A stretch of DNA of 64,000 nucleotides, from contig DATKQS010000012.1 of assembly GCA_035532555.1 (NCBI GenBank), forward strand, positions 1 to 64,000, read 5' to 3'. The notes beneath the pieces are model-generated. The model did no database searches, had not been told where the DNA came from, and saw only the letters and a program-made list of their open reading frames with translations. Position numbers and translations under genes: made by a program. This DNA is from Thermoplasmata archaeon. Lineage in GTDB: Archaea > Thermoplasmatota > Thermoplasmata > Lutacidiplasmatales > UBA184. Positions 1 through 41,727 of the stretch are shown one piece after another. Numbering within the stretch: the stretch's first letter is position 1; every line of letters starts with the position of its first letter.

Positions 1-543
1 TACCCGGAGATTTGCCCGGCCAGCTACGGACGCTTTAGGCTCAATAATAATGAGCACCACTCGGGCCGCGGGTATTACCGCGGCGGCTGGCACCCGTCTT
101 ACCCGGCCCTTACTTCTCGAGCTTTTTAGGCTCGAGAACAGCTTACACAAAAGTGTAAGCACTTGGAGTTCCCCCATCGTGGTTGCCCACATTGTGGAGG
201 TTTCGCGCCTGCTGCGTCCCGTAGGACCTGGATTCGTGTCTCAGAATCCATCTCCGGGCGACTTCTCCCAAAGCCCGTACCCGTCTTCGGCTAGGGGGTC
301 CGTAAAACCCCCTACGACCTGATAGGCCGCAGACCCATCCTCGAGCCCCGGAAGATTTTGGCCAGGGAGCCTTCCATCATCCCAGACCTATCGGGTATTA
401 TTCCCAGTTTCCCGGGATTATCCCCGTCTCGAGGGCAGATTGTCCGCGTGTTACTGAGCAGTGCGCCGAGGGCTTACCCCTCTCGACTCGCATGGCTTAA
501 GCGAACTCCAATAGCGGTGCCCGCCGGCAGGATCAACCGGATT
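1..543 (-). rRNA. rrs: 16S ribosomal RNA, 5' part (continues beyond window start)
   Basis: Read on the minus strand, the 5' end begins with the archaeal signature TCCGGTTGATCCTGCCGG (523-540), and the universal 515-533 (E. coli numbering) segment GTGCCAGCCGCCGCGGTAA lies at 75-93. The window therefore holds roughly the first 540 nucleotides of small-subunit rRNA; the rest lies to the left. Just upstream of the mature 5' end is a 6-bp hairpin (ACGCAC/GTGCGT, 545-562) that could belong to the processing stem. The 5' end is placed by similarity to other archaea and may be off by a few bases. No tRNA or 23S gene lies upstream in this window. Confidence 0.97.
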
Positions 544-12509: not shown

Positions 12510-12544
12510 GGAGATCCTCGAGGAGGGTCACGGGCCCGGGGGGA

Positions 12545-12582
12545 TGCTCGGAGGATTTCCGCGCGCCGCGCGGGAACCCGCG
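12545..12582 (-). other. tRNA-Lys intron 2 (38 nt, T-loop position 59/60)
   Basis: A full bulge-helix-bulge: T-stem GGGGG/CCCCC outside, central helix TTCG/CGAG (4 bp), bulges AAC and CAT (3 nt each). The inner helix is GCGGGTT/AATCCTC with one mismatch, continuing into CCGCGC-GGC-GCGCGG. Cleavage after the second bulge base yields T-loop TTCGAA+T, the universal sequence. Confidence 0.9.
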
Positions 12583-12622
12583 TTCGAACCCCCGACCAAC
12601 TGGTTAAAAGCCAGTTGCTCTT

Positions 12623-12651
12623 TGCCGGGCCGCCGAGGGCATCGGTCGACC
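12623..12651 (-). other. tRNA-Lys intron 1 (29 nt, D-loop)
   Basis: A bulge-helix-bulge can be drawn exactly. The central 4-bp helix is CCGG/CCGG, with 3-nt bulges TTG (5') and CAA (3'). The inner intron helix is GTCG-CCGA paired with TCGGCGGC (one bulged A, loop TGCCC). Cutting after the second base of each bulge joins CCGGTT to AAGAGC. The outer helix is weak, as often for non-canonical introns. Confidence 0.85.
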
Positions 12652-12732
12652 AACCGGACTGAGCTACGGGCCCGATCCCGCTCCGAGGAACGGAGACCCG
12701 AGCCGTGTATTTCAGCCTATCTGCGCCCGAGA

Positions 12733-41443: not shown

Positions 41444-41473
41444 CCGTTGTGAGGGGGCGCGAAACGGGAAGGG

Positions 41474-41556
41474 CGCTGAGGGGGAGATTTGAACTCCCGA
41501 GGCGAATCGCCACCAGTTTTCAAGACTGGCGCCTTCCCGGGCTAGGCTACCTCAGC
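41474..41556 (-). tRNA. tRNA-Ser(UGA)
   Basis: Acceptor GCTGAGG/CCTCAGC, D-stem GCCT/AGGC, anticodon arm CCAGT-CTTGAAA-ACTGG (anticodon UGA), a long variable arm typical of serine tRNA, T-arm GGGAG-TTCAAAT-CTCCC, discriminator G, no encoded CCA. No intron. A TATA-like CGTTTATGCC at 41585-41594 fits its promoter. Confidence 0.96.
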
Positions 41557-41625
41557 GCGGCCGTCAAGGAACCGACGCCGACGGCATAAACGTATGGTCC
41601 CAGGGCCCGCGCTCGGGCCGCTAGA

Positions 41626-41727
41626 TGCAGGTGCCGGGAGCTTCGCCGCGGATCGATCGCGATCCGCCGTTTCGAACCCGGGCGGTCAGCTTGGAAGGCT
41701 GACATCCTACCACTAGATTACACCTGC
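41626..41727 (-). tRNA. tRNA-Gly(UCC) with T-loop intron
   Basis: Acceptor GCAGGTG/CACCTGC, discriminator A, D-arm ATCT-AGTGGTA-GGAT, anticodon arm TCAGC-CTTCCAA-GCTGA (anticodon UCC), T-stem CCGGG/CCCGG. A 31-nt insertion interrupts the T-loop; removing it gives a 71-nt tRNA with T-loop TTCGAAT. A TATA-like CATTAACG at 41766-41773, overlapping the end of the Cgi121 gene, fits its promoter. No CCA encoded. Confidence 0.94.
41640..41670 (-). other. tRNA-Gly intron (31 nt, T-loop position 59/60)
   Basis: Bulge-helix-bulge: T-stem CCGGG/CCCGG outside, central helix TTCG/CGAA, bulges AAA and GCT, inner helix CGGCGGATC/GATCCGCGG with one G-G mismatch and loop GCGATC. Cleavage after the second bulge base rejoins TTCGAA to T, the same position as in tRNA-Lys. 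Confidence 0.9.

Follow-up and report, generated by a model that had tools for sequence, protein, structure and literature searches.

Non-canonical tRNA introns and their endonucleases in archaea

Introns at non-canonical positions of archaeal tRNA genes are well documented: passages of PMC8450103 count 673 of them in 217 genomes, and the list of non-canonical positions in an excerpt of PMC4090602 includes position 59/60 of the T-loop. The non-canonical bulge-helix-bulge (BHB) introns of Crenarchaeota and Nanoarchaeota resemble those described here in the use of 59/60, in the BHB logic, in the enzyme family, and in the occurrence of multiple introns per gene. The present introns differ from them in belonging to Thermoplasmatota, in being accompanied by a two-unit EndA, in their concentration at 59/60, and in forming an isoacceptor set that is common to species of a genus. 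A large share of interrupted tRNA genes, often with non-canonical and with several introns per gene, is also found in Thermoproteales and in the Asgard groups Atabeyarchaeia and Freyarchaeia (passages of PMC8450103 and PMC11291895). According to the same passages these sets are larger, with 0.84 introns per gene in Thermoproteales and 92-95% of tRNA genes interrupted in Atabeyarchaeia and Freyarchaeia; in contrast, one T-loop position dominates in the genome studied here, being occupied in 14 of 44 genes. With respect to the endonuclease, two units in one chain are known from EndA of Archaeoglobus fulgidus and Thermoplasma and from the subunit-fusion enzyme of Methanopyrus kandleri (5x89). The EndA encoded here has the same build but is longer (354 aa versus about 290-305 aa in the Archaeoglobus and Thermoplasma enzymes), and it differs from them further in that many non-canonical positions appear to be among its natural substrates.

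Both the intron type and position 59/60 are known already; the novelty lies in the lineage and in how consistently the introns occur there, unusually concentrated at a single site. No description of tRNA introns from the order Lutacidiplasmatales was found in the open-licence literature. The order is named in PMC9287336, the genome table of which, as excerpted, contains the isolate SubAcS10-22, and the word 'intron' is absent from the main text of that paper. With our analysis, the known range of non-canonical tRNA introns comes to include an entire soil and acid-site lineage of Thermoplasmatota. We consider it highly probable that the insert described below is an archaeal BHB intron at 59/60 that is spliced by EndA and RtcB, and that it is old and has been inherited mainly vertically within Lutacidiplasmatales.

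The interrupted tRNA-Gly(UCC) and tRNA-Lys(UUU) genes

The window, i.e. the whole stretch of 64,000 nucleotides that was analyzed, begins at the start of contig C12. The tRNA-Gly(UCC) gene occupies positions 41626..41727 on the minus strand and has a 7-bp acceptor stem, a 5-bp T-stem (CCGGG/CCCGG), and the anticodon UCC. Its 5' exon (41671..41727, minus strand) ends with A59 (TTCGAA), and its 3' exon (41626..41639, minus strand) begins with U60 (T CCCGG CACCTGC A). Between them lies a 31-nt intron (41640..41670, minus strand) at 59/60. Removal of the intron gives a normal cloverleaf with the 7-nt T-loop TTCGAAT, and the expected spliced junction is GGGTTCGAA^TCCCGG (TTCGAA^T). The predicted fold is a canonical 3-4-3 BHB, in which two 3-nt bulges (AA^A and GC^T) flank a 4-bp central helix (TTCG/CGAA), and the inner helix of the intron has 9 bp with one mismatch. 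The precursor folds at -48.6 kcal/mol, compared with a mean of -35.2 for shuffled sequences (z -3.88; none of 200 shuffles was as good). A reading made from the sequence alone had described a 31-nt insert at exactly this place, with a standard BHB and a restored TTCGAAT loop, and the coordinates, the fold, and the exons all agree with it. The gene directly downstream, tRNA-Ser(UGA) (41471..41557, minus strand), is uninterrupted and served as a comparison gene.

The tRNA-Lys(UUU) gene of the window (12531..12673, minus strand) contains two introns. The T-loop intron (12545..12582, minus strand) is 38 nt long, lies at 59/60, and has the central helix TTCG/CGAG with one G-U pair; thus the earlier statement that the Gly(UCC) and Lys(UUU) genes are interrupted at the identical position was correct. 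The D-loop intron (approximately 12623..12651, minus strand) has borders that were placed by eye from its putative BHB fold (CCGG/CCGG, bulges TT^G and CA^A). We used a strict parser for T-loop-interrupted tRNAs, which requires an acceptor stem, an anticodon arm, a T-stem, and an interrupted T-loop. In the 64-kb window it found exactly two genes, Gly(UCC) and Lys(UUU), and none in each of 20 dinucleotide-shuffled windows. An archaeal 16S rRNA gene (positions 1-543, minus strand) is present with its 5' part only, as it runs off the window start.

T-loop introns across the genome

The genome of origin (1.6 Mb in 27 contigs) is estimated to be 96% complete. Its tRNA inventory was compiled from Rfam tRNA matches, flanking sequence, a pattern search, and a covariance model (R1) for which interrupted tRNAs were used as input. 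Among 43 Rfam matches, 42 were kept, and one (C20:15196) was dropped by eye as spurious. Genome-wide DNA patterns proved noisy (130 places versus 16 in the control for the first pattern and 53 versus 8 for the second) and were replaced by R1; their only use was in spotting Leu(UAG). The parser missed the tRNA-Asn of this genome, the anticodon arm of which fails its test, and Asn was also omitted from the alignment of interrupted tRNAs, where MAFFT misplaced its row. The resulting count of 44 tRNA genes takes in a second Gly(GCC) gene (C9:149802) that is a possible pseudogene.

About a third of these genes carry an insert of 26-38 nt at 59/60, namely Gly(UCC), Lys(UUU), Arg(UCG), Arg(UCU), Ser(GCU), Ser(GGA), Ser(CGA), Ala(GGC), Asp(GUC), Asn(GUU), Gln(CUG), Glu(CUC), Leu(UAG), and His(GUG). 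The sequence-only reading had predicted further interrupted tRNAs in this genome, and had named as evidence against itself a lack of other T-loop introns together with a second intact tRNA-Gly(UCC) gene. The 14 genes bear out the prediction, and the inventory contains just this one Gly(UCC) gene. The interrupted His, Asp, and Asn genes are likewise the sole genes found for these tRNAs in the genome, and therefore their inserts must be removable. The Rfam and R1 searches of the genome did not recover the tRNAs Ile(GAU), Pro(UGG), and Pro(GGG); they may lie in assembly gaps or contain more introns.

The same genome has D-loop inserts in Lys, Leu(UAG), iMet, and Arg(GCG), and inserts at 37/38, after the anticodon, in Leu(UAA), Trp, Tyr, and a CAU tRNA. 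Lys and Leu(UAG) have multiple introns within one gene. This distribution bears on the earlier proposal that the T-arm itself is the recognized structure, according to which a dedicated site-specific system would treat the T-arm and the BHB geometry would be secondary. Such a system would fit the predominance of 59/60, by far the commonest non-canonical position in the genome (14 T-loop versus 4 D-loop inserts), as well as the exon half TTCR that the interrupted genes share. However, every tRNA conserves TTCR and the T-stem, whether or not it is interrupted, so that sharing them is uninformative, and only one EndA gene was found in the genome. Recognition of the T-arm as such is unlikely because D-loop and 37/38 introns coexist with the T-loop introns, the feature common to all of them being the BHB. 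Altogether, we regard a dedicated T-arm system as very improbable.

The quality of the T-loop splice sites is variable. The central helix is fully paired, counting G-U, in six of the 14 genes (Gly, Arg(UCG), Asp, Gln, Lys, and His), and has one mismatch in the remaining eight, of which seven have A57.G and Asn has C.C. In minimum free energy folds the central helix of Asp and Glu is open and Asn folds differently, while the His fold is unexceptional (z -1.77, with 9 of 200 shuffles as good).

Detection by tRNA finders

The expectation that ordinary tRNA finders would miss such genes holds in part. ARAGORN missed eight of the 14 interrupted genes and gave a wrong 3' end for the other six, and the Gly(UCC) gene was missed by Rfam at the gathering score. 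The expectation may not extend to tRNAscan-SE 2.0, the archaeal mode of which searches for non-canonical introns by default, as described in passages of PMC8450103. Since ARAGORN loses or mis-ends all of these genes, genomes of Lutacidiplasmatales can seem to lack essential tRNAs.

Conservation of the introns in related genomes

We scanned the genomes of named species by pattern for interrupted Gly(UCC) genes and sorted the 58 resulting stretches by eye. Thirteen of them are from Thermoplasmatota and represent the same gene as in the window; the others include Gly(UCC) genes with T-loop inserts from DPANN and Asgard archaea, and the rest include bacterial and chance matches. The DPANN and Asgard genes, from Woese-, Aenigm-, Nano-, Thor-, Heimdall-, and Jordarchaeia MAGs, have their inserts at the same T-loop site as judged by eye, but these inserts are often shorter and have other sequences.

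For the covariation analysis we aligned 12 Thermoplasmatota Gly(UCC) genes (the window gene and 11 others), excluding the near-duplicates L092 and L105. The exons are nearly invariant, whereas two-sided (compensatory) changes are seen in eight of the nine pairs of the inner helix, and 76.5% of inner-helix cells, rather than all, are paired. The covariation of the whole structure is 0.193 compared with 0.085 in shuffled alignments, and none of 500 shuffles reached the score. The sequence of the insert diverges, and compensatory changes preserve its hairpin. Position 57 was read in 61 parsed sequences from the genus. Among the 21 with G57, the opposite intron base is C in 20; the 40 with A57 have G opposite in 34, U in five, A in one, and C in none. 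The purine at 57 and the opposite intron base co-vary, with G rather than U as the usual partner of A57; the A.G mismatch in the central helix is apparently maintained.

A further view takes the interrupted genes for pseudogenes or for damaged copies whose insertions are not spliced out, in line with the imperfect state of several central helices. We give this view hardly any credence: conserved exons and hairpins kept by compensatory change across species speak against decay, as do the recurrence of the same isoacceptors in other species, the status of the His, Asp, Asn, and Gly(UCC) genes as the sole ones found, and the use of GGA codons (17 in a MutS-like ORF).

The R1 model was used to trace the interrupted tRNAs across the class. 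It was built partly from the genome of origin, including the window gene, so that the R1 score of the window itself is circular. Strong R1 matches were obtained in all 24 same-genus relatives (best E-values from 1.7e-22 to 4.8e-18), and at least one T-loop insert was confirmed by sequence in 21 of them. In two other species of the genus, the interrupted isoacceptors nearly match those of the genome of origin: G012 has 11 parsed genes, and G017 has 11 parsed genes plus Asn recognized by eye. G017 corresponds to the isolate SubAcS10-22, which has the same Gly intron and gives the host order as Lutacidiplasmatales. In the class survey, 98 of 300 genomes had R1 matches at E<=1e-13. Seventy-one of them belong to the family of the window, with 47 in the genus (including the genome of origin) and 24 in other genera, and 27 are outside the family, with one or two matches each. 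Matches were checked by sequence in five of these 27 (G025, G027, G028, G038, and G040), and all were true. No family member is among the 20 of the 202 non-matching genomes that were listed, which start with an order-level relative. Two distant and well-assembled members of the class, G032 and G039, had no R1 match at E<=1e-13; their best matches are about 72 nt long, i.e. uninterrupted.

The parser gave no result for a number of loci (L170, L171, L172, L177, L241, L245, L247-L249, L251, L252, L269, and L270). Inspection by eye identified T-loop inserts in L177, L241, L247, L248, L249, L251, and L252; an intact tRNA-Lys(CUU) was seen at L245. Several of these loci come from G026, an A+T-rich genome of the same order but another family, in which the T-loop inserts are only 13-14 nt long and have the form TTCAAA^...TGAAAA^T. 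They were parsed in Asp and Arg(UCU), and visual inspection added Arg(UCG), Gly(UCC), Glu(CUC), Gly(CCC), and Gln(CUG). These mini-inserts have no inner helix and thus correspond to a bulge-helix-loop rather than a BHB. In several of the G026 tRNAs read by eye (L247, L248, L249, L251, and L252), a second insert near the anticodon is present beside the T-loop insert.

Several tRNAs are interrupted both in G026 and in the family of the window (Gly(UCC), Glu(CUC), Gln(CUG), Arg(UCG), Asp, and Arg(UCU)). In the simplest reading, the T-loop set is older than the split of the two families, and the insert length changed later. The alternative is a recent spread by intron transposition between tRNAs. 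Large-scale transposition has been proposed for Thermoproteales (PMC4090602, as excerpted), and the presence of introns at one position in many different tRNAs would fit it. However, the interruptions recur in the same isoacceptors in other species of the genus, and for several of these isoacceptors also in G026, and the introns of different tRNAs within one genome do not appear near-identical by eye. We find recent transposition unlikely, and infer that the introns descended mainly vertically.

Splicing machinery

The genome of origin encodes EndA as a single 354-aa ORF with both PF01974 domains; neither a further EndA gene nor a separate gene for a beta subunit was found in this genome. RtcB is also encoded (PF01139, E 2.4e-174). 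This EndA is of the alpha'2 type, a single chain that holds two units and one complete active site; its AlphaFold model has a pLDDT of 92.4. The best Foldseek matches of the model are 5x89 (TM 0.87/0.91) and A. fulgidus 2gjw (about 0.76/0.86). Residues Y285, H300, and K331, which we take to be the catalytic ones, are invariant in 20 sequences. EndA was detected in 36 of 41 relatives' genomes, and the two domains, where seen, are within one ORF; in G010 there is an extra EndA fragment on another contig.

We suggest the following scheme for the preferred reading of the insert as a spliced BHB intron. In the precursor, the T-stem would form the outer helix, and T54-R57 would pair with the last intron bases before the 3' bulge to form the central helix, with the remaining intron sequence folding into a hairpin of its own as the inner helix. 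The single alpha'2-type EndA, presumably as a homodimer, would read the BHB and cut after A59 and before U60, and RtcB would seal the exons into a normal 7-nt T-loop. Across species, the same isoacceptors stay interrupted while the intron sequence drifts.

The specificity of this enzyme deserves separate consideration. The EndA segment YGSKLGDRLELS aligns without gaps with YGSEKGDLVTLS of wild-type A. fulgidus EndA, whereas the broad-specificity chimera 3p1y has extra residues after YGS, which presumably represent the Crenarchaea-specific loop (CSL). Judging from this alignment, the EndA of the window's genome appears to lack the CSL of broad-specificity enzymes. According to passages of PMC4033280, PMC6379350, and PMC12397907, canonical BHBs are the sole or main substrates of alpha4 and alpha'2 enzymes, while an excerpt of PMC8707768 reports that homodimeric EndA can also cut bulge-helix-loop sites. 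The A57.G mismatch in half of the central helices is a mild puzzle, given that alpha'2 EndA is often described as strict. The tension between such reviews and the A57.G sites and mini-introns is real but not decisive, since, going by the excerpt of PMC8707768, homodimers can cut bulge-helix-loop sites as well.

We tentatively propose, as a possibility somewhat short of even, that a plain two-unit EndA without the CSL routinely processes relaxed BHB sites, represented by the A57.G sites of the genus and by the 13-14-nt bulge-helix-loop introns of G026. If so, the diversity of T-loop introns would not depend on the loops thought to have co-evolved with it, and one position would have been fixed long ago for the whole order. 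The introns described here make testable the published rule that relaxed or oddly placed introns go with special-loop endonucleases.

Integrase genes and additional observations

Another proposal, compatible with the preferred reading of an old spliced BHB intron, concerns its retention: introns may be kept because they disrupt the T-arm half of the tRNA gene that is used as an integrase attachment site. For split tRNAs, the idea of disrupted tRNA genes as an obstacle to integration has been published (Randau and Soll, as cited in a passage of PMC4033280). Four integrase-family genes were found in the genome of origin, and the one that adjoins a tRNA gene (C24:107485-108115) is some 100 bases away from the 5' end of tRNA-Arg(CCU), which is uninterrupted. 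However, this is a single case, on the 5' side of the tRNA, and the gene may encode a housekeeping recombinase; the other three integrase genes of this one genome are not beside any tRNA that was found. We consider such a protective role improbable, a shade more so than recent transposition.

Several other tRNA loci of the genome have unusual features. The second Gly(GCC) gene (C9:149802-149874) scores lower than the normal copy (C9:145426-145498), lies about 4.3 kb from it, and has similar flanks, which would be compatible with a duplication turning into a pseudogene. In the roughly 60 bases that follow the CAU tRNA with an intron (C9:116462-116562) lies an inverted repeat around CGGGGGATTCAAATCCC; it looks like a copy of the T-arm and is possibly an attachment-site remnant or a terminator. 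Finally, in the tRNA-Trp gene (C17:22725-22887) the intron after the anticodon is long and contains box C/D-like motifs, which are typical of archaeal tRNA-Trp.
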